Shown here one piece after another: positions 2,706 through 18,625 of a stretch of 20,308 nucleotides of DNA. The notes under the pieces are model-generated. The model saw nothing but the letters and a program-made list of their open reading frames with translations. It had not been told where the DNA came from and did not search any database. Source of the DNA: a virus; the IMG/VR virus record IMGVR_UViG_3300021440_000144, positions 1 through 20,308 of that record; one strand, written 5' to 3'. Position 1 is the first letter of the stretch; each line of letters opens with the position of its first letter. The translations under genes and the position numbers were made by a program.

Positions 2706-4655
2706 TTAATCCTTTAATTTCTGGGCAGTTGCTGCCGATGCTTTTGGGAGTTGGTCAATTATTTCGTTCAGTGCTTTTTCAAAAGCAGGAGAGCCTATTT
2801 TGTCAGATGCTAGCGCAAGCCTATACCCTTTGGTTCTCATTAGGCTGGTCAGCTTAGTCAACACACCGGCACCAATACCAGCTGCAGCCGTTGCTACTGG
2901 GTTGGTCGCTCCACCATAACCAACCGCCGCCATCATACCCGCCTTTAGATATGGAATTAAAGACATGCCATTTGATGGGCTTTCGTTCAATTGTCCATAC
3001 CTTTCGGCATGCCGCATGATTTTAGCCAATCCCTTGACCTGTTCTAATTCTTTTCCTTTTAGGGTTGACTCGATAGGGTCTGACATCCTCTCAAGGTATC
3101 CAGCTAGTTTAGCAGGAGATACACCAGATTCAGTAGTTGCGCCTTTAATGGCGTTATCAATCAGACCATCTTTTAAAGCGTCTTTGCCTTTGTCGGCTAA
3201 AAGGTTGTAGAAGTTTGCCGCCCTATCTCCTTTGCCTTTTTTGATGAACTTGTTGAAAATCTCATCGGGCGTGTCGGACTTTATGGCATTGATTATGGTC
3301 CTGTCATTATACGGAACCACATTAGCTTTGTAATGCTCTTGAGCAGTATGGAACGCTTCTTTAAGTCGTTGGTCTTGGGTGTTCATTATCTTAGGCGCAC
3401 CGCCTATGGTACCTATCTCGACCCGCTTGTTAACCAGTAAATCAATGTCATTTTCGATTCCGGTTTTAACATCATTAAGTTGCCTAGCTAGGTTTCTATC
3501 ACCCGCATCAGATGCTTTTTGTGCTGCCTTTTGTAGATCGGACCTGTCCTTTCTCAGTTGAGAGAATGTCCGTCCACTCTTGGATAGGTTTTGGCGAATT
3601 TTGGTAAAAGGATTTGCCTCATTCCCCATGATGTTATCAGCTATGTCCGCTTCATGTTTTGCCGCTTTTTCAATCGCATTTTTAGGTTCAATTGAAACAC
3701 CAGAACTAAGCTGCTCTACTTTGTCGTAGTTGATTTTTGCCTGCGCCCTTCCGGCTTGAGATTTTCTAGCCAATGATTCTTGAATGGCCTCATCCCATGA
3801 CGGGTTGACCTGAGAAGCTTCTTTCTTAATGGCTTCCTGTACCTTTTGCGCACCTTCTTTTCTGAATCCTCCCATACCAACACCTGGAACGCCTTCGAGG
3901 GCTTTCTCGGTCATCTTTCCCTTGCCCGTTACGTCAGCCCGGCTTAAAGGGATATCGTACTTCTTTGAAAGGTCCATCAACTCCTGAACGCCTGAATCTG
4001 AAAACTTTCCTTTTAAAGCATTAAACGCCTTGACTCCAATTTTCTTAACAAGCATTCCTGCGCCGGCAGTACCAGCACCGAACAAAGCCCCATATAGGGT
4101 GTTTTTTGCTCTGGTCTCGTTATCGTCCACAAACTCAGTCGCGCCTATTCCTGCGCCTGCTGTGGCCCCTGTACCAAGAGCTATCCCAACCTTTGCTAGT
4201 GGGTTGGCGACATTTTTAATCGCGTTCAGACCACTAACCCCTGGGATTAGAAATGTTGGAGAGGTGGCCGCGATTCCACCTAAGATTTCCCCGGCTAAAG
4301 CGGTTTTGCTTCCCTTTGAAGCATCCATGTATGCCGCTTTGTCTTCTTTATAACCAGAGACATCACCGCCAACAAGCTGCTTGATCCCGTTGTAAACATC
4401 CAACATACCCTCACCGGCTCCCGCCATAAAACGAGAATAACCAGATAAAGCCCCAAATTGCTTTTGGCGATCTTTGGATACTTGCTTAGAAACGGATTCG
4501 TTAGAGACCTTGATTAGGTCTTGGCGATCAACAGATTGGAGAAGTTCTGGCTTCTTTTTGGCAACCATTTGAATCAAATCAACATCGTCCAAATGAGCGT
4601 ATTCGGGTTTTCTTTCCCTAACCCTGTCCGAGAACTCTTTTACTGATAGCGGCAT
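2706..4655 (-). CDS. Putative DNA ejection (internal virion) protein, 649 aa
   Basis: The N-terminus (SVKEFSDRVRERKPEYAHLDD, then LIQMVAKKKPELL) is the short helical motif at the head of many podovirus internal virion or ejection proteins. Glycine- and alanine-rich hydrophobic stretches follow at roughly residues 120-165 (AGEILGGIAATSPTFLIPG), 187-207 (LYGALFGAGTAGAGMLV) and near the C-terminus (MMAAVGYGGATNPVATAAA, then GIGAGVLTKL). Between them lies a long charged helical region. This pattern fits a protein that leaves the virion with the DNA and enters the host envelope, as P22 gp16 and gp20 do. The start ATG follows GAGG by 7 nt. The preceding gene ends 12 nt upstream and the tailspike begins 3 nt after the TAA. 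The role rests on architecture and position, not on recognised homology to one P22 protein. Confidence 0.78.
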   Translation of the reverse strand: MPLSVKEFSDRVRERKPEYAHLDDVDLIQMVAKKKPELLQSVDRQDLIKVSNESVSKQVSKDRQKQFGALSGYSRFMAGAGEGMLDVYNGIKQLVGGDVSGYKEDKAAYMDASKGSKTALAGEILGGIAATSPTFLIPGVSGLNAIKNVANPLAKVGIALGTGATAGAGIGATEFVDDNETRAKNTLYGALFGAGTAGAGMLVKKIGVKAFNALKGKFSDSGVQELMDLSKKYDIPLSRADVTGKGKMTEKALEGVPGVGMGGFRKEGAQKVQEAIKKEASQVNPSWDEAIQESLARKSQAGRAQAKINYDKVEQLSSGVSIEPKNAIEKAAKHEADIADNIMGNEANPFTKIRQNLSKSGRTFSQLRKDRSDLQKAAQKASDAGDRNLARQLNDVKTGIENDIDLLVNKRVEIGTIGGAPKIMNTQDQRLKEAFHTAQEHYKANVVPYNDRTIINAIKSDTPDEIFNKFIKKGKGDRAANFYNLLADKGKDALKDGLIDNAIKGATTESGVSPAKLAGYLERMSDPIESTLKGKELEQVKGLAKIMRHAERYGQLNESPSNGMSLIPYLKAGMMAAVGYGGATNPVATAAAGIGAGVLTKLTSLMRTKGYRLALASDKIGSPAFEKALNEIIDQLPKASAATAQKLKD

Positions 4656-6993: not shown

Positions 6994-7374
6994 TTAGTAC
7001 CATCCCTCAATGGAATCGAATCTTACTTCTAAAACTTGTCCATCGGTAACAGCCTGAGATGCCGCTCCCTTTATGTTCTCGCTATTGCCATTAACCGTTA
7101 CACTATTCCCAGACGACCCAACATTCACAACACGAACCAAAACGCCTTGTTCACCCTTGGCCAGATTAACAACTATCGCGCCTGAATTTGTATTGCAAAC
7201 TAGGTTAATACCTTGATTTGTGACACTATAAGGTGAATTCGTGCTGGTAATTCTTATGGTTTCGATTGCTACCGTACCTAAAAGATTCTGGACAAGTTGA
7301 AACCATCCAATCCAAACCCTTGAGGCTAGACCACTCGATTCAGATAGAACTTGTTTAATTGGTGCCGGTTGCAT
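6994..7374 (-). CDS. Small beta-rich tail-associated protein, 126 aa, unknown function
   Basis: The start overlaps the gp10-like stop as TAATG, with a strong GGAGG site 7 nt upstream inside that gene. After a short helical N-terminus with WIGWFQLVQNLLG (about residues 22-34), the rest is a run of beta strands: INLVCNTNSGAIVVNLAKG, GVLVRVVNVGSSGNSVTVNG, and a C-terminal VLEVRFDSIEGWY. This NTxxGAIxVxL...GNSVTVxG pattern recurs in small phage tail and fibre-associated domains. No coiled coil is visible, so it does not look like the P22 gp26 tail needle, although it sits in the corresponding place between gp10 and the ejection genes. It may be a minor tail or plug protein. That is inference from position only. 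Confidence 0.75.
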   Translation of the reverse strand: MQPAPIKQVLSESSGLASRVWIGWFQLVQNLLGTVAIETIRITSTNSPYSVTNQGINLVCNTNSGAIVVNLAKGEQGVLVRVVNVGSSGNSVTVNGNSENIKGAASQAVTDGQVLEVRFDSIEGWY

Positions 7375-9552: not shown

Positions 9553-9960
9553 TTAAGCAGCAACGGCGCGGATAATGGCAAAGTTGATAAGGATTGCTCC
9601 CGTTTCAGCCGTACCAGCAGCAGCATTGTTATTGATAACGGTAATCGAGAACTGTCCATCAGCCACCGCCGAAACCTGAATGGAAGTGTTCAGTGCGACC
9701 GAACCGCTCTTGATGCTAGTGACTACTACGTCTCCAGCCTTCACAAAGCTATTGGTCACCACAAACACAGCCGAAGCCTCAGCCGCAAGTGAAGCGTTAT
9801 TGGTGGTAATGGTTCCGCACATGGCGTTAATGGTCACGCCAGTTGCGCGGTTTGTGGCCTGGGTTACTGCCGATCCCTGTCCAGTGGTATAACCAAATGG
9901 TTGACCATAGGACGCGGCGGTAGTCGCTGGAGCCTGATTTGAATTTGTCGAAGTAGGCAT
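9553..9960 (-). CDS. Probable capsid decoration / head protein, 135 aa
   Basis: This belongs to a small beta-rich protein type often found directly after phage major capsid genes. The Ser/Thr/Asn/Ala-rich N-terminus is followed by AVTQATNRATGVTINAMCGT, LAAEASAVFVVTNSFVKAGD, VVVTSIKSGSVALNT, and the closing ILINFAIIRAVAA. The strand pattern suggests a single beta-sandwich. The ribosome site is the strongest in the window (AGGAGG, 6 nt before ATG), implying high output. Only 56 nt separate it from the coat stop, and an intrinsic terminator closes the pair. The decoration role is inferred from position, size and expression signals; no assay-defined homologue is claimed. Confidence 0.78.
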   Translation of the reverse strand: MPTSTNSNQAPATTAASYGQPFGYTTGQGSAVTQATNRATGVTINAMCGTITTNNASLAAEASAVFVVTNSFVKAGDVVVTSIKSGSVALNTSIQVSAVADGQFSITVINNNAAAGTAETGAILINFAIIRAVAA

Positions 9961-11305: not shown

Positions 11306-12100
11306 TTAACGAAGACGATTTATACGAGCAGCATACTCTGGAAAGGTTTCCTTTGACTTATCAAAGGCTTTTCCTGTTGGAGCCTGTACTCGTGGTGCGC
11401 TGCCTCTTTCCGAACGTGTCGGATTTGGCGCGGTGCTAATGGTTTTGACTGGTTTAGCTTCCAGCTTTGCAACTAACTTGCCCATTAGAAAGATTCTTTC
11501 TTTTGGCGACGCGCTGGCGATCTCCTCCAGTTCATCGGGATTGGTACCGAGGTACTTAACAATCTTTGGGCCTTGTTTCTTAGCTGCTAAAATCGTGTCT
11601 TGGATTTCTGGGGCATCATACACCTCAACAATCCGGTCAATCTCTTTCTCGTAATCATGGAACTTCGGTTCCTCTTTGATTACTTCAGCTCGTCCGGCAA
11701 TGTAAGCCTTTTGCTGCTCGTCAAGCCTAGCCTTTCGGTCTTCATCGGCTTGTTTAATTTTCAGCTTTCGCTCTTCCTCAGAACGAATCTTTTCCCGCTC
11801 CTGATTCTTCCAGGCTTCGCGGTCCTCATTGTACTTGTCCCGGTCTGAATAATCGTCAGGGTCCGGCTCCCGCTTGATAACCGTTTTGGACTTGATTTCG
11901 TCCAGCTCCCTTTGAAGGGCTTCGGCTTTTCGCTCGGCCTCTCTTCGGTGGAATGTCTGGGCTTTTAATCGGTCACTTAGGCGGTTACGGGCCTTCTCTT
12001 TTGCCTCTTGGTCTTGCTCTTTATTCTCGGCGACTTCGGTTTCTGAGCCTTCGGTTTTAACTTCGGTCTCAGTTGCGGTATCTTCGATTTGTTCTAGCAA
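11306..12100 (-). CDS. Scaffolding protein, 264 aa (TTG start)
   Basis: The product is highly charged and mostly helical. An acidic N-terminus (ETEVKTEGSETEVAENKEQD) is followed by a long coiled coil (about residues 30-135) with FHRREAERKAEALQRELDEI. Next come the PDPDDYSDRDKYNEDREAW motif seen in podovirus scaffolds, a helical domain, and a basic C-terminal tail ending in EYAARINRLR. The basic end is reminiscent of the coat-binding helix-turn-helix of P22 scaffold. Position directly before the coat supports the call; P22 gp8 is 303 aa. The only plausible in-frame start is TTG at 12098-12100, with only a weak GGGG 5 nt upstream. The frame is also open back to the TAA of the preceding gene, so a non-standard start further upstream is possible. 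Confidence 0.85.
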   Translation of the reverse strand: MLEQIEDTATETEVKTEGSETEVAENKEQDQEAKEKARNRLSDRLKAQTFHRREAERKAEALQRELDEIKSKTVIKREPDPDDYSDRDKYNEDREAWKNQEREKIRSEEERKLKIKQADEDRKARLDEQQKAYIAGRAEVIKEEPKFHDYEKEIDRIVEVYDAPEIQDTILAAKKQGPKIVKYLGTNPDELEEIASASPKERIFLMGKLVAKLEAKPVKTISTAPNPTRSERGSAPRVQAPTGKAFDKSKETFPEYAARINRLR

Positions 12101-12154: not shown

Positions 12155-13213
12155 TTAGCCGATAGCCTCGATAATAGCCAAAATTAGAGCTATATCGTCC
12201 TCTTCTTCGATAATTTGAGGCGCATTTCCGGATACAGCCTCAGATTTTTGGCTGTAATCTGGGAAACTATCAAGTATTGACTCAATGGTTTCCTCGATTA
12301 CCGGAGCGATTTCCTCAGGCTCTTTCTCGATAACCGGAGATTCTTGGATAGTCTTACGCATGGGGATTCCGTAGACGGCCTCCATGCCTTTTATTTGGTC
12401 TTCGGTGAATTCCTGGGATACCTCTGGGGCTACTTGGCTGATAGCCTCAATGATTTTTTCCTCTTTTTTCTTCTTTGATTTCCTCTTTTTTGGGAGATCA
12501 ACAATAACAGAACCGCCTGTGGTGATCCGGTTACCGGCGGACCCGAAAGATGACATGGTATCGTCGGATTCGGTGACAGATATTGTTCCATCTGTCGATG
12601 TGAACCCCATAATAGCGGCAACGTCATCGGCTTCAGTTTGGGCGATTACGCCTACAATTATCGGAGTTCCTGAAATTGCGACTACGTCATCATCATCAGT
12701 AACGGAAATAGTTCCATATACCCCATTCCCAGATGATCCAGAGATTGATGATGTATCGTTAGACTCTGTTTGAGCAATCGCCCCGACAATTGTTGTTGTT
12801 CCAGAAACCGAAATAGCATCATTAGATTCCGTGACAGCTAAGGAACCAACTATGGTTGTGGTTGCGGTGATTGATGAAGAATCATTCGCCTCGGTTTGTG
12901 CTATTGTGCCATCTACTCCAGTATTTCCGATTATCGAACTTGCGTCATTCGTCTCTGTTTGAGCAATAGACCCGATTATGGTTGTAGTGCCGGATATTAC
13001 CGAAGTGTCGCTTGATTCAGTTTGAGCGAGTGCTCCAGATACAACAGGAGACCCAGAGATTGAAGATGTATCCGAATCCTCGGTTACAGCGATGGTTCCG
13101 GTAATCGAAGACGCTAAATCAATTAAATCCTTATCAAACCAGGCTAAATTGATTAACAGGGGGTCGAACCACGCATCCCCCACGGTCAATTCATCAAAAA
13201 AGCCCAGAGACAT
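12155..13213 (-). CDS. Repeat-containing putative structural protein, 352 aa
   Basis: The start chosen is the ATG at 13211-13213, which forms TAATG with the preceding stop; a TTG nine bases upstream is less likely. The N-terminus (FFDELTVGDAWFDPLLINLA) is a short amphipathic segment. Nine imperfect repeats of about 21 residues follow (about residues 37-230) with the pattern G-[TSAV]-[IL]-[AS]-[QV]-T-[ED]-x-x-D, for example AIAQTESNDTSSISG. Then come a Lys-rich patch (LPKKRKSKKKKEEK) and an acidic, helical C-terminus rich in Glu and Ile. Repeats like these occur in phage structural proteins and probably fold as short beta hairpins. The function is unknown; attachment to the head or tail surface is an inference. 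It is the last gene of the block before the scaffold. Confidence 0.75.
   Translation of the reverse strand: MSLGFFDELTVGDAWFDPLLINLAWFDKDLIDLASSITGTIAVTEDSDTSSISGSPVVSGALAQTESSDTSVISGTTTIIGSIAQTETNDASSIIGNTGVDGTIAQTEANDSSSITATTTIVGSLAVTESNDAISVSGTTTIVGAIAQTESNDTSSISGSSGNGVYGTISVTDDDDVVAISGTPIIVGVIAQTEADDVAAIMGFTSTDGTISVTESDDTMSSFGSAGNRITTGGSVIVDLPKKRKSKKKKEEKIIEAISQVAPEVSQEFTEDQIKGMEAVYGIPMRKTIQESPVIEKEPEEIAPVIEETIESILDSFPDYSQKSEAVSGNAPQIIEEEDDIALILAIIEAIG
12526..13105 (-). repeat. Nine tandem ~63-nt coding repeats
   Basis: Within the repeat protein gene, units of 63 nt (one of 69 and one of 72) repeat in frame. The strongest shared words encode the Ala-Gln-Thr-Glu and Asp-Asp positions and the TTTIVG linker. 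Copies differ at many synonymous sites, so the array is old or selected for protein pattern rather than freshly duplicated. Confidence 0.8.
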
Positions 13214-14067
13214 TAGGCCCAAGTCCCAGAAGTTGCAACCGTGTTGTCACCTATGGCGGTCAGACGGAAAAAGGAATTTCTCTTAACCGTAATCGTTCCG
13301 GTAGGATTTGCGCTGAAAGTGAACTGAGGTATTAGGGTGCCCGTCGCATTAATTCTGATAACACCCTTGATTTGGATATATGTGGCAGCTTGGGTGCCAG
13401 CAGCATCAACAGTTGCATTAGATGCCGAAGTAACATTAATTCCGCTAAAGGTTGAGCTAATGGTGTCGGCTGCGGTTCTATGGGCTTGCGCGTAATAGTC
13501 GATAGATGTAAGCGTCGCTGTTCCGCCAAAGCTAAGACCAGTCGAATGAGATGTTGCCCCATGGGTAATCTTAAGCATGCCATCCATTAAAAAACTGGTT
13601 GTAGCGGGTACCGTAAGGCTTCCGTTAGTCGGGAACCATGGCTGCGCCGAAGTACCTGCCGTTCCGCCAGTATCATCAGCAGTAAGAACTTTGAACAGGC
13701 TAGGTCCAGTGTTTGCAGTATACAGATACCAGCCAACCCCCTCTACATACGAAAGGGTTTCACCGGCTTGTAGAACTGTTTTGAACAGTTCGTAAAGCGT
13801 TCCATTCGCGTTGTATTGGACGGTGATATAGGTCGCTATTGAGGCGTCCTTATTCCTGATATTGATGTTCTTCGCATTTCTCGTAGTTGATGCGCCAGGA
13901 GATCCGACTATGGTTGTTCCAGTTGTCGCCGTGGTAATTGCGGTATTCGTCTTTCCGAAGGAAATGGTTCCCGCATTGTTATCAACCCAAGAGGCATGAA
14001 CATCGATTGTTGATGTTGTGCTCGTGATAACTGAAATAAGGTCTGTGGTTGCTGCAAGGAGAAGCAT
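13213..14067 (-). CDS. Beta-rich putative virion accessory protein, 284 aa
   Basis: The N-terminal half resembles a protein type common in phage structural clusters: MLLLAATTDLISVITSTTST, then VDVHASWVD-like strands, NAKNINIRNKDASIATYITV, and LFKTVLQAGETLSYVEGVGW. The second half, from about residue 140, forms another beta-rich domain: FPTNGSLTVPATTSFLMDGM, HGATSHSTGLSFGGTATLTS, and a final KRNSFFRLTAIGDN. The content is Thr/Ser/Ala-rich with almost no Cys and no enzyme motif. An AGGA site 5 nt before the ATG overlaps the previous stop codon, and the stop overlaps the start of the repeat-protein gene. A head-surface or fibre-associated role is inferred from fold style and location only. Confidence 0.75.
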   Translation of the reverse strand: MLLLAATTDLISVITSTTSTIDVHASWVDNNAGTISFGKTNTAITTATTGTTIVGSPGASTTRNAKNINIRNKDASIATYITVQYNANGTLYELFKTVLQAGETLSYVEGVGWYLYTANTGPSLFKVLTADDTGGTAGTSAQPWFPTNGSLTVPATTSFLMDGMLKITHGATSHSTGLSFGGTATLTSIDYYAQAHRTAADTISSTFSGINVTSASNATVDAAGTQAATYIQIKGVIRINATGTLIPQFTFSANPTGTITVKRNSFFRLTAIGDNTVATSGTWA

Positions 14068-14069
14068 GT

Positions 14070-15236
14070 TTATCCTAACGGAGGGAATTTCCTCAATGTT
14101 GGTCTAACGCCCGGCGTTTCAATTGAACTGTTGTAGAAGTAAAGCGAATCCGTTGCTTTATTCATCAGGATATATCCGCGAATATCCGTGTTATTGTTTA
14201 CGCATTGGAATCGGCCATACGTGCCATTTGCCCATGGGCTTGTGGGGGTGCTTCCAGAGCCTGGGGTAATGAGTTTCCATGTCCAAGGGTCACCGTTCTG
14301 ATACGGATTCGCAGCGGGAGGGATTAACTCGTAAATCTTTTTACCAGCACCATCGAACCAAAAGACGAATCTGTCCCTCAGTGAATCCCACCCCAATGTT
14401 CCAATGGTAGCGGTTCCGGTTCCGTCTGCACGCGCCGGAATATCTCCCCTAGTTCTGGGACGATAATAATCCCCAGTTAAACCATTTACAGCATCGAAGA
14501 AGGATAGACCGTTTGAGTTGTCCCACAAACACCAAATCCCTCGGGTATTATCCATTGCAGACATACCGCCGCCACCATATCCTAGGGGGCTTTTGAATGT
14601 GTCATCACTAAAAGTCCCAGCCGCAACATTAAAGTAACCGGCATGGTTTGCGGAATTCTTATGATAAAAAACCCTACCAGCAGCAGGATAATAAGCGGCG
14701 ACATCGCAGTTTCCAGATGTCAGGTTTGCAAATGTTGACCACGGTTGATTGGTATTCGGTCCGGTCTGATTGAAATTGAATGCATGCATTTCCGTTCCAC
14801 CGCCCGAATCGATGTAACGGAAAATGACACCCATCATCAGCATGATGTTGTTGGTACCATCATTGATATAAACTGCGGTGTTGTAGGTATGCCGAGAAAC
14901 AGGATTACCACTTCCGTCTGTATTGATGTCTTGAGGCGCGGGAGATGTTGGATTCCTTAGCTTATTCCATGCTGGGGAATTATTCTCAAGCGGGCCAAAG
15001 GCGTAGATCTCATTACCCGAATAATCGGTATGTCCACCTCCCCAAGGAATCAAGAAAGTCCCAGTGGTTTGGGTGGAGCCTATGTAAAGCCCACCAGTGA
15101 CTAGAATAGCCCCACCCCACGCTTCCATTTGCTTTCCACCACTGGTTTCCATAACCCCACTAGAGCTAAGGACGGAGCTAGGAATAGCCGCCCATTCGCC
15201 CTTTGGAATCGCTTGGTACCAGGTTGGTGAAGCCAT
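14070..15236 (-). CDS. Putative beta-propeller (kelch / galactose-oxidase-like) protein, 388 aa
   Basis: The sequence is rich in Trp, Gly, Asn and Tyr and shows blade-like repeats: the N-terminal WAAIP region, then FLIPWGGGHTDYSGNEIYAF (about residues 61-80), PVSRHTYNTAVYI, MLMMGVIFRYIDSGGGTEMH, DVAAYYPAAGRVFYH, TLGWDSLRDRFVFWFDGAGK, and WANGTYGRFQCVNNNTDIRG. GGGHTDYxGNExYAF is typical of kelch or galactose-oxidase-like propellers. No Cys-Tyr copper site or hydrolase signature can be assigned, and there is no signal peptide. Start and stop are tightly packed between neighbours. A carbohydrate-binding or surface role in the virion is an inference. It could instead be an unrelated all-beta protein. 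Confidence 0.75.
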   Translation of the reverse strand: MASPTWYQAIPKGEWAAIPSSVLSSSGVMETSGGKQMEAWGGAILVTGGLYIGSTQTTGTFLIPWGGGHTDYSGNEIYAFGPLENNSPAWNKLRNPTSPAPQDINTDGSGNPVSRHTYNTAVYINDGTNNIMLMMGVIFRYIDSGGGTEMHAFNFNQTGPNTNQPWSTFANLTSGNCDVAAYYPAAGRVFYHKNSANHAGYFNVAAGTFSDDTFKSPLGYGGGGMSAMDNTRGIWCLWDNSNGLSFFDAVNGLTGDYYRPRTRGDIPARADGTGTATIGTLGWDSLRDRFVFWFDGAGKKIYELIPPAANPYQNGDPWTWKLITPGSGSTPTSPWANGTYGRFQCVNNNTDIRGYILMNKATDSLYFYNSSIETPGVRPTLRKFPPLG

Positions 15237-15237
15237 T

Positions 15238-15633
15238 TTATGCGTTACCTCGGGTGATGGTTGCGCTCGAAATGCTGACCGGCTGGGTTGCCACGATTGT
15301 CGTGGTCGTGAGATTCAAATCAGAACCGGAAGTACCGACGTTTCCATCCATAACATGCGTAGTACCATCTGATTTTACAATACGAAACCATGTAGCCGTA
15401 CCTGATGCATTTGCCGATGAGTCCTGAGTAATTGAATTAAGCGTAAGCACGCCTGATGATGCCGATGGGGCAAATGTTGCGTTGCAAGTTAATTCGGCCA
15501 ATAGAGTTGTCGCGGTTCCGCCTGTTGCTGGGCGCGTGCCGTCGTAAATGCGAAGCAAGCAGCTACCAGCCGCAAATGTAGTGATGGCGTCAAGCTGGTC
15601 GTTTCTTAGGAGGACGTTATAACCTAGAGCCAT
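15238..15633 (-). CDS. Conserved phage structural-cluster protein, 131 aa, unknown function
   Basis: This belongs to a recognisable small family found in many phage morphogenesis regions. It has FAAGSCLLRIYDGTRPATGG near residues 20-39, LLAELTCNATFAPSASSGVL, ITQDSSANASGTATWFRIVK, DGTTHVMDGNVGTSGSDLNL, and a closing ISSATITRGNA. The strand pattern indicates one beta-sandwich domain. No catalytic motif is visible. An AAAGGGG site lies 6 nt before the ATG, and the preceding 54-aa gene ends one base upstream. A part in virion decoration is possible. The family's function is not known to me. Confidence 0.8.
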   Translation of the reverse strand: MALGYNVLLRNDQLDAITTFAAGSCLLRIYDGTRPATGGTATTLLAELTCNATFAPSASSGVLTLNSITQDSSANASGTATWFRIVKSDGTTHVMDGNVGTSGSDLNLTTTTIVATQPVSISSATITRGNA

Positions 15634-15634
15634 T

Positions 15635-15799
15635 TTAAGCCCCTTTCTTTAAGATGATTTTTGCCGCACTACCTGCGACTTGCCAAATCAAGCTAAAGGT
15701 CGAATTGGCTTTGATTGGTAACTTTTCTACAACGTATTCCCAGATGAAGACAATGACAGCCGTTGCAATCTCTGGGTGATTTTTGATTGATTCGATCAT
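15635..15799 (-). CDS. Small hydrophobic membrane-associated protein, 54 aa
   Basis: The start ATG overlaps the previous gene's TGA as ATGA, with GGGAG 5 nt upstream, and the TAA is one base before the next ATG. The product begins MIESIKNHPEIATAVIVFIW, continues with EYVVEKLPIKANSTFSLIWQ, and ends in a basic IILKKGA. Residues about 11-24 could be one membrane segment or an amphipathic helix, and the KANSTFSLIW part resembles a motif in small conserved phage proteins. There is no Cys, so it is not an Rz1-type lipoprotein. The tight coupling to the upstream membrane protein suggests the two act together. A holin-like role is possible but unproven. Confidence 0.72.
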   Translation of the reverse strand: MIESIKNHPEIATAVIVFIWEYVVEKLPIKANSTFSLIWQVAGSAAKIILKKGA

Positions 15800-16260
15800 C
15801 GTCGCTCCCTCAAGTCTCTTGCTATCTCGTCCATTTTATTCATGATAGCGACTTGATTTTGGGTGTATTTGCTTTGGTTTTCTTCGATTCTCTTCATGTG
15901 CTCGTGTCCAGTTTTATGAAGAGTCTCCGTAACTTGTTCTCTATTGTGAATCTTGAATCCCATTTCAATAAATGCCGTACTCTGTTGGCGAATGGCCTCG
16001 GCGATCTTCTCGTCCGTGGTCTCCATTCTTACAAAGCCCTCTTTTATCACACCCATGATTTGGGTGAGGATTTCGCGATTGTTTTCCCGCAGAGCCTTCA
16101 TTAACTCTTCGGCAGTAATCGACCCCTGAGACTGAGCCTTAGCCATGGCCTCAGCTTTGACATGGGAGGGAGGGAAATACTTTACCAGAAAACCATACAC
16201 GGCTAGGAGACAGGAGATAAATAAGCCAAGGTCCGTCCAGGTGAAGTCGTGTAGGTTCAT
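15796..16260 (-). CDS. Membrane-anchored coiled-coil protein, 154 aa (spanin- or holin-like architecture)
   Basis: One membrane segment near the N-terminus (LGLFISCLLAVYGFLVKYF, about residues 11-29) is preceded by a short MNLHDFTWTD tail. About 120 charged helical residues follow, including ITAEELMKALRENNREILTQ, EKIAEAIRQQSTAF and KRIEENQSKYTQNQ. This one-helix plus coiled-coil layout is shared by inner-membrane spanin (Rz-type) proteins and by some phage anchors. No lysis enzyme is visible in the window. An AGAGG site 6 nt upstream gives the start, one base after the previous TAG. The gene overlaps the next small gene by 4 nt (ATGA). The function is open. Confidence 0.78.
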   Translation of the reverse strand: MNLHDFTWTDLGLFISCLLAVYGFLVKYFPPSHVKAEAMAKAQSQGSITAEELMKALRENNREILTQIMGVIKEGFVRMETTDEKIAEAIRQQSTAFIEMGFKIHNREQVTETLHKTGHEHMKRIEENQSKYTQNQVAIMNKMDEIARDLRERR

Positions 16261-16261
16261 G

Positions 16262-16423
16262 CTAATCCTCTACCATTTCCGGCTCTTCTTTAGTGATAAC
16301 CTTCCAACCATCACCTGATTTTGTAATGACTGAACGCTTTAAAACATTCCCGCCATTTCCAGACTCTTTTACCACAACATCATAGCCGTTTTTGGACTTG
16401 GTTACAGTTGACTCCTTAACCAT
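16262..16423 (-). CDS. Small protein of 53 aa after the portal, in frame with the portal amber stop
   Basis: From the ATG at 16421-16423 the product is MVKESTVTKSKNGYDVVVKE, then an SGNGGNVLKR segment, SVITKSGDGWKVITKEEPEM and a VED end. It has two similar beta-hairpin-like units, TVTKSKNGYDVVVKE and VITKSGDGWKVITKE. GAGGAG lies 12 nt upstream, a long spacing. A short AGGA-GTC-TCCT fold over that stretch could shorten it. The frame is also open without a stop back to the portal TAG (16469-16471), through an acidic ILDTPEEPEEESPKV stretch that looks coding. The real product may therefore start earlier or arise by readthrough. The next gene starts one base after the TAG. The function is unknown. 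Confidence 0.65.
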   Translation of the reverse strand: MVKESTVTKSKNGYDVVVKESGNGGNVLKRSVITKSGDGWKVITKEEPEMVED

Positions 16424-16468
16424 AACCTTAGGAGACTCCTCTTCCGGTTCTTCTGGAGTATCAAGAAT

Positions 16469-18625
16469 CTATTGGTTGTGGAGTTCGCGAATCCTATGGG
16501 CATTTGTGGACTCTGTTTTGATTAAATCAGTAGCCAACGTGTCATGGTTAATCTTTAATGCTACTTCAGCTTGTAAATCAGCTTTCATAGCCTCCTGATC
16601 GACCTTCTTTGCTTCTAGTTCAAGCTTGGCTTGTTCTAATTGCATCTCGCCTTGAATCTTGGCTTGTTCTAATTCAAGCCTCTTAATCTCAATTTGAACC
16701 TTGGCCCTTTCAATCTCTACCTGACCGGCTGCGGCAGCGTTCTTGTCGGCGTTCGACTTTTGTAAGGCTTCGTTAAGCTGTTGTGCTTGTAGGCTGACCT
16801 GTTGAAGTTGCGCTTGGCATTGATTCAATTGCTGTTGAAGGAAGGCTAATTGCTCATCACCTTTTTCAGGTTTAGATTGGGTGGTAATGCCTGGGAACTG
16901 CTTTTCAATGGCGAATTCAAGTCTATCAGCTAAGGCATCTTTTCCAACCCAATCCTGAGACCTTACTACAAGGTCAGGAGCCACGTTTTGGGCTAAAGGT
17001 ACAGCAGAAAGAAGCTCAAGCATGCCAGCCGCCTGCTCTTCTCTTTGCGTGTTAAACGACGGCCCAATAGAAACAGTTACATTGAAATTGCCAGAGCTAA
17101 ATCCATCGTTATCACTGGAATTTATGAGGATTAACTCCTCTTCTTCATTGTCTTTTCTGGTTGTCACCGTTCGCTTGGTATCGTAAACGATATGAATCGC
17201 TGAATTTATAACCCTTCCTTCATGGTTCATCGCCATGGCCAGGTTATCCATATAATGGAAATTAGCGGTGTTTGTCTGTGCTTCGCGACGCTTTAAGGCT
17301 ACACCAGAAGTCTCATTTGACCGGTTTCCAACCGAGGCATCGTAAATGCCTGTGATGGCCTTGATGTCCTCAATTATGTTCGCCTTTTGCATGGCGATGT
17401 TGGACAAATCAACCGAGTACTGAGCCCTTTGTGGAGGTGGGGCTATGGCTCCATTAAGGGTTACCGGCTTGTACTCAAGATATGGAACATCCGATATGTT
17501 TGAATTGGCGAACTCTTGCTCATGGCCTTCAAACTGACCTTCGGCACCAATCCAAGGAGCCCTAGGGGCTTTTGCAATGATGTCGGCTTCATTGGATGAA
17601 ACGAAATTATAAAGCCTTAGTGGGGCTTTGATGTCCCTGATAAGGCCCTTACAACTCCATTTTCCCTTGACAACGTTCTCTTTACCGATGACTGTGATAA
17701 TCGGGATTTCTTTCCAGGGTAGAGGCTCTTCGTCCACTATCTCTGAGCCCGTCATCTTGTACCACATCCAGTAAGGGTCTTGAACCTCTCTGGACTGAAG
17801 TATCGCTACCTCTTTACCTTTTGGTAGTTCGTCCTGCCAAATGGTTCTGGTTGACTCTCTACCGTTATCATCTAACCCTTGGACCTCGATTAGCGTCCTG
17901 GTTCGATATTGTTTGCAGTAATACTCTGCAATCGTAATGTCTTTTTGTGTGTACCAGAAGTTATTCGCCGATCCATCCCATGGAGTTAAGGCTATATCTG
18001 GAAACTCTTCTTCAAACTCTTTGCGCGGCTTATTGGTAACGACAAAACCATACTCACAATCAGAGTAATCCGGCCTCTGGCGTCTCCAATCCATATAAAC
18101 GGATTGGGAGTCTTGAATGGGTTCAATTACAATCTCACGATTAAACGTCCCATCGATAAACTTTGTCTTAACAATCCAATGCCCTCGACCCTCGTCAACC
18201 GCATCATCAAATCCTGCTTGCCTGGCTTGCGCTGCTTTTGACTCGTACTGAATACGACGAATAAGACCTTGGCGTCTCTTGGCCTCATCTTCGTCAGCCC
18301 CCTCATCTGTCGGGGATATTTTGATAGCTGGCTTATTTTGGCGGTTCTGGTTCTTTATATGGTCCGTGAACTGATTGGACCGCATGATTGTCAGGAATGA
18401 CCTACCAGAACCACTTCTGCTTGCAACGTCTTGAGGATTCCATTGGGCGTCGTTTTCGCCTACTGCGAAGGCTTTATCATCAAGCATCATTAAACGCTCG
18501 TGATTCTCGAAATCCTGAATTTCCTTGAACCGCTCTTTGGCTAGAGTATGAATCTCAGCCCACTCGTCAGCTTTTGATTCGCTGGCTTCGTGAGACTTCG
18601 ATTCTCCCTCTATCTTTTCGTCCAT
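16469..18625 (-). CDS. Portal protein, P22-like, 718 aa
   Basis: P22 portal is 725 aa, and this product matches its layout. An acidic N-terminal segment is followed by QDVASRSGSGRSFLTIMRSN (about residues 65-84), NRQNKPAIKISPTDEGAD, and wing and clip segments with IEPIQDSQSVYMDWRRQRPD and KWSCKGLIRDIKAPLRLYNF. Next is the ANIIEDIKAITGIYDASVG region leading to the crown. The last about 130 residues (from about 588) are a long Gln/Glu/Lys/Ala coiled coil, corresponding to the helical barrel inside P22-type capsids. Twelve copies form the DNA channel and the terminase docking ring. The ATG has no strong ribosome site. The stop is TAG, whereas most genes here use TAA, and it is followed in frame by the next small ORF. 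Confidence 0.93.
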   Translation of the reverse strand: MDEKIEGESKSHEASESKADEWAEIHTLAKERFKEIQDFENHERLMMLDDKAFAVGENDAQWNPQDVASRSGSGRSFLTIMRSNQFTDHIKNQNRQNKPAIKISPTDEGADEDEAKRRQGLIRRIQYESKAAQARQAGFDDAVDEGRGHWIVKTKFIDGTFNREIVIEPIQDSQSVYMDWRRQRPDYSDCEYGFVVTNKPRKEFEEEFPDIALTPWDGSANNFWYTQKDITIAEYYCKQYRTRTLIEVQGLDDNGRESTRTIWQDELPKGKEVAILQSREVQDPYWMWYKMTGSEIVDEEPLPWKEIPIITVIGKENVVKGKWSCKGLIRDIKAPLRLYNFVSSNEADIIAKAPRAPWIGAEGQFEGHEQEFANSNISDVPYLEYKPVTLNGAIAPPPQRAQYSVDLSNIAMQKANIIEDIKAITGIYDASVGNRSNETSGVALKRREAQTNTANFHYMDNLAMAMNHEGRVINSAIHIVYDTKRTVTTRKDNEEEELILINSSDNDGFSSGNFNVTVSIGPSFNTQREEQAAGMLELLSAVPLAQNVAPDLVVRSQDWVGKDALADRLEFAIEKQFPGITTQSKPEKGDEQLAFLQQQLNQCQAQLQQVSLQAQQLNEALQKSNADKNAAAAGQVEIERAKVQIEIKRLELEQAKIQGEMQLEQAKLELEAKKVDQEAMKADLQAEVALKINHDTLATDLIKTESTNAHRIRELHNQ

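Follow-up and report, generated by a model that had tools for sequence, protein, structure and literature searches.

The virus record IMGVR_UViG_3300021440_000144 of IMG/VR, analysed here over its whole length of 20,308 bases (the window), carries a P22-type morphogenesis cluster in which seven genes lie between those for the portal and the scaffold (12155–16423). These seven genes, here termed the block, and the core genes around them are on the minus strand. We lean, with moderate confidence, towards reading the block as a modular, horizontally exchanged virion adhesin (host-attachment) cassette inside the morphogenesis operon. Its 131-residue product, p131, belongs to a family of virion structural proteins, and its 388-residue product, p388, is modelled as a kelch-type β-propeller. 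The middle genes of the interval differ in the two closest relatives by portal, and two other phages carry pectate-lyase-type tailspikes in the same interval. The p131 gene recurs together with propeller, p284-type or p355-type genes, often beside portals, in phages whose portals are unlike. In uncultured podophages, genes for receptor binding easily escape notice, since annotation searches tail genes; if the portal–scaffold interval is a recurrent host-recognition slot with p131 as a frequent marker, host-range genes would become locatable in many metagenomic phages by position and a single profile.

The block within a P22-type gene cluster

The minus-strand genes of the window run terL, portal, block, scaffold, coat, a 135-residue protein, gp4-, gp10- and gp7-type genes and others, with a tailspike candidate beyond. 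The gene order is that of P22 (Lederbergvirus), as shown by terL, portal, scaffold, coat and the gp4- and gp10-type genes. The difference lies in the interval behind the portal, which measures 13 nucleotides (nt) in P22 (portal end at 3879, scaffold start at 3893), in agreement with an earlier note on this DNA, and 4.4 kb in the window; it is variable among relatives. The seven open reading frames (ORFs) encode products of 53, 154, 54, 131, 388, 284 and 355 residues, named p53 to p355 by length, and are listed with their flanking genes below.

16469–18625, minus strand: portal (flank); phrog_156, 7.3e-106
16262–16423, minus strand: p53, 53 residues, first gene of the block; ORF
15796–16260, minus strand: p154, N-terminal membrane segment, then a coiled-coil-like stretch (by reading); hydropathy, weak match to phrog_1009
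15635–15799, minus strand: p54, small membrane protein that accompanies p131 elsewhere; homologues in L114 and L044
15238–15633, minus strand: p131, garland-family (phrog_3758) virion structural protein, proposed dimeric connector; phrog_3758, 1.1e-31
14070–15236, minus strand: p388, predicted kelch-type β-propeller, proposed host-surface binder; AlphaFold2, Foldseek and VIA
13213–14067, minus strand: p284, two predicted β-sandwich domains; AlphaFold2, module homologues
12155–13222, minus strand: p355, N-terminal 'WFD' motif, nine repeats of about 21 residues, basic linker and acidic-hydrophobic C-terminal tail; repeats, homologues
11306–12100, minus strand: scaffold (flank); phrog_8865, 7.7e-30

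The block begins 45 nt behind the portal and ends 54 nt before the scaffold. Inside it the junctions range from −10 to 2 nt: 1 nt between p53 and p154, −4 nt between p154 and p54, 1 nt on either side of p131, 2 nt between p388 and p284, and −10 nt between p284 and p355 when counted from the listed TTG start of p355. An alternative ATG at 13213, three codons in, would give a 1-nt overlap and a 352-residue product, and is the likelier start. The guanine–cytosine content of the block (0.467) hardly differs from that of its flanks (0.466 and 0.462), and a recent foreign insertion, as judged by base composition, was therefore rejected. The seven tightly packed, same-strand genes that the earlier note had described are thus all present, and several of its labels were upheld: the probable propeller by a structural model of p388 and its matches, the repeat protein by the nine units of p355, and the membrane character of two products by their highest 19-residue hydropathy, which is 1.92 in p154 (residues 11–29) and 1.56 in p54.

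p131 belongs to a garland protein family

The family phrog_3758, which p131 matches, is annotated as 'virion structural protein'. A tblastn search with p131 in phages gave 47 records, 40 Mycobacterium and 6 Vibrio among them, and a profile of four p131 sequences reached two solved chains, PDB 44nx_B (3.1e-14), for which no paper was found, and 9rkv_A (5.7e-6). According to PMC12796354, 9RKV models the tail fibres of Agrobacterium phage 7-7-1, and the garland protein gp014 sits round these fibres. Both gp014 and 9rkv_A are 141 residues long and the aligned stretch of 9rkv_A is letter-identical to gp014; the matched chain is therefore gp014. The garland protein is thus sequence-related to p131 and of similar length, with an E-value of 1e-10 against a hidden Markov model of the p131 family, and gp012 of the same phage is related more strongly (1.6e-20; both values come from a small set). 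The gene for gp012 (L295:6334–6765; loci compared here are cited by L numbers) encodes a second p131-family protein near the garland gene.

A further parallel, drawn by description, is found in the garland proteins gp125/gp127 of phage Milano. According to the available text of PMC10811340, they have a fold like that of T4 gp8 and A511 gp105 and form dimers linking receptor-binding proteins, and an unknown 'string' is present. Phages 7-7-1 and Milano have contractile tails with baseplates, whereas the p131 gene stands in a P22-type cluster behind the portal. By analogy, p131 may form dimers arranged like a garland round fibres, and such connectors would hold the binding proteins of the cassette on the virion.

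In IMG/VR, 272 stretches encode p131 relatives, and the best 80 of these (67–84% identity to p131 of the window, near-duplicates included) were taken as p131 loci. Directly upstream of p131, with its end at most 98 nt away, 51 of them have an ORF of 649–830 residues; these ORFs form 21 clusters at 70% identity. Nine of these upstream ORFs were scanned: the one from L063 matches an internal virion protein and the other eight match portal families; the upstream ORF of L016, outside the 80, also matches a portal, the portal families overall being phrog_156, 12082 or 1216. Among the 51 portal-side loci, 7 show a labelled coat gene behind the cassette; the rest end earlier or carry coats that the profiles leave unlabelled. 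In L054, p131 is 82% identical to that of the window while the portal is of another family, with no match to the window portal, which points to horizontal exchange. By a search with p131 alone, the gene was confirmed in four bacterial contigs (Nitrosospira, Pelagibius, Kiloniellaceae and Acidisoma), and the Nitrosospira contig holds a near copy of the L063 neighbourhood around p131.

p388 is modelled as a kelch-type propeller

No relatives of p388 were found by tblastn in phages, and exact patterns of eight residues, run on IMG/VR and genomes, gave none either. The degenerate pattern GGHxDYxGNE, from the p388 stretch GGHTDYSGNE, led to 91 viral stretches, several of which encode full-length homologues (best identity 47%). 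An AlphaFold2 model from a 24-sequence alignment reached a predicted local distance difference test (pLDDT) score of 84 and a predicted template modelling (pTM) score of 0.88. Foldseek matched this model to 767 PDB chains at E ≤ 1e-3, a kelch domain being best, and VIA aligned 278 residues of it with the LZTR1 kelch domain (Z 26.4, root-mean-square deviation 2.7); families missing from either list do not count as excluded. As modelled, p388 is a kelch-type β-propeller. It has the fold of the kelch proteins, whereas the solved structures listed are 8–16% identical to it.

The propeller gene stands directly behind p131 or a portal-sized ORF in five of nine homologue loci: behind p131 in L243, L278, L286 and L282 (L243 and L278 have identical scores and may be one phage) and behind the portal-sized ORF in L213. 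Such an ORF lies two genes upstream of the propeller in L224 and four in L215, which also has p131, while L285 and L210 have neither near the propeller. In L243, the portal-sized ORF is followed by p131, the propeller, two repeat proteins, two further genes, and scaffold-like and coat-like genes (the last two by reading); its second repeat protein ends ...YEDEEIAILAMLA.

The portal–scaffold interval in related phages

The relatives closest by portal are L026 (portal 58%, coat 65% identity) and L029 (portal 53%, coat 51%), each with a block of about 3.5 kb at the same site. Their opening genes resemble small membrane/coiled-coil proteins and their middle genes differ from those of the window; the middle of the L026 block holds a LamG-type lectin domain (1e-12). 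A wider set of 80 loci was selected by portal, from which L122 was dropped, being on the same contig as L026; 31 of the remaining 79 have no labelled scaffold or coat in view. In the 48 readable loci, the gap from portal to scaffold or coat is under 200 nt in 21, 200–700 nt in 6, 700–2000 nt in 8 and at least 2000 nt in 13, part of these lengths possibly being inflated by unrecognised scaffolds. The interval is therefore an optional slot in which insertions recur.

The interval of phage DSL-LC05 measures about 4.8 kb and holds an annotated tailspike that matches a pectate-lyase family (3e-11); a pectate-lyase-type protein is also encoded within the interval of L193. DSL-LC05 and related uncultured phages thus resemble the window in having a block at this site, but the genes are others, the first encoding 120 residues, and p131, p388 and the C-terminal tail of p355 were sought in DSL-LC05 and not found. 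In many of the loci L149–L201, which form a DSL-LC05-like subgroup, the 120-residue gene lies directly behind the portal, often followed by long β-rich genes. The late block genes of L158 and L180, of the same subgroup, have another C-terminal ending in common.

p284 and p355 as further cassette parts

No Pfam family was matched at its cut-off by p388, p284 or p355. The AlphaFold2 model of p284 shows two β-sandwiches at moderate confidence (pLDDT 75, pTM 0.60), with weak fold matches to the phi812 spike knob (1.4e-2) and to TNF-type folds. Its N-terminal module occurs in 14 other loci, in some with a different C-terminal part, and its C-terminal module in 4, many of the loci counted having been fetched by p284 itself.

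For p355, a weak match to phrog_38872, of unknown function, was obtained (1.1e-4). Homologues of p355 stand behind p284 homologues in L012 and L015; in the former (MW202496), homologues of p131, the p284 C-terminal module and p355 are adjacent and colinear. In Curvibacter phage P26059A, downstream of terL, a p131-family gene is followed two genes later by a p355 homologue. The N-terminal motif of p355 was found in six loci that carry genes for the p284 N-terminal module; in an enlarged locus set the N-terminal profile collapsed to one match, and the six-locus result was kept instead. The last block genes of the window, L026 and L029 have a homologous C-terminal module (BLASTP 3e-4 for window and L026, 2e-11 for L026 and L029), the similarity being reached by 0 of 500 shuffles in each of the three pairs. 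The last gene of the block is thus conserved at its C-terminus and variable in its N-terminal part.

A common acidic-hydrophobic C-terminal tail

In many of the proteins encoded last in a cassette, an acidic run is followed by a hydrophobic terminus: p355 of the window ends ...IIEEEDDIALILAIIEAIG, and others end ...QEDEELLLLL or ...DDEEDEEYLLLMMV. A rule for such tails was framed on the first 120 loci and then applied unchanged to the portal-selected loci. In the first 120, it is passed by 33 of 1820 genes, p355 of the window included; by reading, 27 of the 33 are cassette genes that follow a portal or p131, three precede terL (L033, L034 and L036) and three stand elsewhere (L003, L044 and L110). 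With one locus per portal cluster, 8 of the 95 genes at most six places from p131 pass the rule, versus 2 of 177 elsewhere (p 0.004), one of the two (L092) being a cassette gene at place seven. The tail is present in 8 of the 14 p131 clusters whose downstream sequence extends for at least 3.5 kb, so that it is common and not universal; none of these figures is independent of the framing of the rule. Out of sample, 4 of 100 genes in the portal–scaffold interval pass, and 1 of 944 outside it does (Fisher p 3.7e-4, genes taken as independent). The single 165-residue gene in the interval of MW202573 bears the tail. The rule misses the last gene of L026, a homologue of the p355 C-terminus, and look-alike ends in L141 and L163.

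The position of the tail suggests that it may dock p355 on the particle. A broader proposal, put forward tentatively and with some doubt, is that the tail acts as a portable virion-loading signal, which phages of several portal families would graft onto unlike stalk or lectin-like proteins encoded just before the scaffold; any adhesin could in this way enter the particle under assembly, the cassette then being a general host-recognition plug-in system of uncultured podophages. If true, such a loading tail would be a simple rule for attaching and swapping these proteins.

In L033, L034 and L036 the tail-bearing proteins precede terL, and L034 also has a gene for the p284 N-terminal module there; the cassette can therefore sit on the other side of terL.

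The small and membrane genes

No family match of weight was obtained for p53 in the Pfam and PHROG scans, and the idea that it is a detached C-terminal tail of the portal was dropped, as neither the portal end of L026 nor that of L029 is significantly similar to it (30 and 3 of 500 shuffles). The weak match of p154 is to phrog_1009, of unknown function (5.7e-5). Genes of similar appearance open the blocks of L026 and L029, with weak pairwise similarity to p154 (4 and 23 of 500 shuffles). An i-spanin role for p154 found no support: in comparable genes of L029 and L044 the hydrophobic segment is found at the opposite end, and no lysis family was matched.

Neither p154 nor p54 had a tblastn match in phages, and the Pfam and PHROG scans gave no holin, spanin or other family for p54. 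Homologues of p54 lie directly upstream of p131 in L114 (50% identity, 3e-5) and L044 (0 of 500 shuffles each). In L282, two genes after the propeller, the series continues with a membrane/coiled-coil gene (by reading) and the genes for a DUF7940 protein and an M15 peptidase. Together these contexts suggest that p154 and p54 are membrane proteins that form a pair of their own, apart from the adhesin genes, and perhaps serve lysis.

Discussion

In the adhesin cassette that we favour, p388 as a propeller, p284 with its two sandwiches and p355 as a stalk would be exchangeable parts contacting glycans or proteins of the host surface. The connector p131 would hold them on the virion, the tail of p355 would dock that protein there, and translation together with portal and scaffold would make all of them available as the particle is assembled. 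The earlier note had suggested a distinct virion-surface or host-interaction module, and this gains weight from the homology of p131 to a tail-fibre-associated protein of 7-7-1, the propeller beside p131 and the tailspikes of the interval. Its view of the mix of products as unusual has to be qualified, since the block is not isolated (see the 13 gaps of at least 2 kb among 48 loci), and the two membrane genes that it counted in this mix are membrane-type but probably not surface proteins, given the position of p54 before p131 in two loci and the gene context of L282. In the literature on portal–scaffold genes, kelch propellers in tails and head fibres, including the available text of PMC10386132 and PMC10611076 and with subscription papers mostly outside, no description of this cassette was found; its parts are of known kinds, and their combination, position and common C-terminal tail appear not to have been described there.

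Several observations weigh against an adhesin cassette. The comparison of gene order that the earlier note proposed gave blocks at the same site in L026 and L029, but none in L027/L028 (coat 54%, terL 57%, portal 37% identity) or L030 (coat 52%, terL 51%, portal 37%), and the scaffold also lies right behind the portal in Rhodoferax phage P26218, EBPR podovirus 1, Xanthomonas phage PBR31 and Vibrio phage D478. The relatives without a block and the 21 of 48 gaps under 200 nt indicate that the block is dispensable for the P22-type plan. In L026 and L029, moreover, BLASTP found no p131, propeller or p284. Structure prediction, also proposed, gave the propeller for p388 but for p284 no PDB fold match at E ≤ 1e-3. 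In Vibrio phages and Fowlmouth the relatives of p131 have tail genes nearby, and in Rhizobium phage RHph_TM3_14A (L041), L046, L286 and L299 they closely follow capsid-type genes (several gene names by reading); with such mixed locations, a tail role in a short-tailed virion is an extrapolation. Finally, a 900-residue ORF at the left contig end (3–2702), cut by that end and with no Pfam match, presumably represents a P22-type tailspike, which it resembles by its N-terminus; with this candidate, the block is not the sole possible adhesin of the genome.

The same evidence bears on a second explanation, in which the cassette products are capsid-surface decorations or head fibres, the C-terminal tail of p355 docking on the coat lattice with the N-terminal repeats or lectin-like domains pointing outward. 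T4 Hoc is the model for such a decoration: it has N-terminal stalk-like repeats and a C-terminal anchor, as in the layout of p355, which, from the position of its tail, may bind the capsid. The block genes adjoin scaffold and coat rather than tail genes, the capsid-side p131 relatives of RHph_TM3_14A, L046, L286 and L299 fit a head location, and so do the conserved C-terminus and varying N-terminal part of the last gene and the concentration of acidic-hydrophobic tails in the portal–scaffold interval. Nevertheless, the solved p131 relative gp014 is associated with tail fibres, tailspike-type genes occupy the same interval, and the p131 relatives of the Vibrio phages and Fowlmouth lie near tail genes; we regard head decoration as unlikely, though it deserves serious attention.

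It is quite improbable that the block is a mixed accessory insert of non-virion genes for lysis, exclusion or other cargo riding in the operon: the membrane-type p154 and p54 would suit such an insert, as would the membrane-type genes and M15 peptidase behind the L282 cassette, but p131 belongs to a virion structural family with solved virion members, and p284- and p355-type genes recur alongside it. An assembly artefact or chance ORFs, conceivable for one metagenomic contig, is hardly credible, as L026 and L029, on other contigs, have blocks at the same site, all six internal junctions are tight, and the ORFs are genes rather than chance, given that p131 matches phrog_3758 and that p131, p388, p284, p355 and p54 have homologues.

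Other genes of the window

The 135-residue protein encoded after the coat gene (p135, 9553–9960) is 59% identical to L286:5053–5424, which lies behind a 309-residue capsid-like protein (by reading), and is possibly a shared head decoration protein. A further product, p126 (6994–7374), matches only the last 85 residues of a 793-residue L026 protein (14257–16638) in the same position, which looks like the loss or gain of a fibre body.

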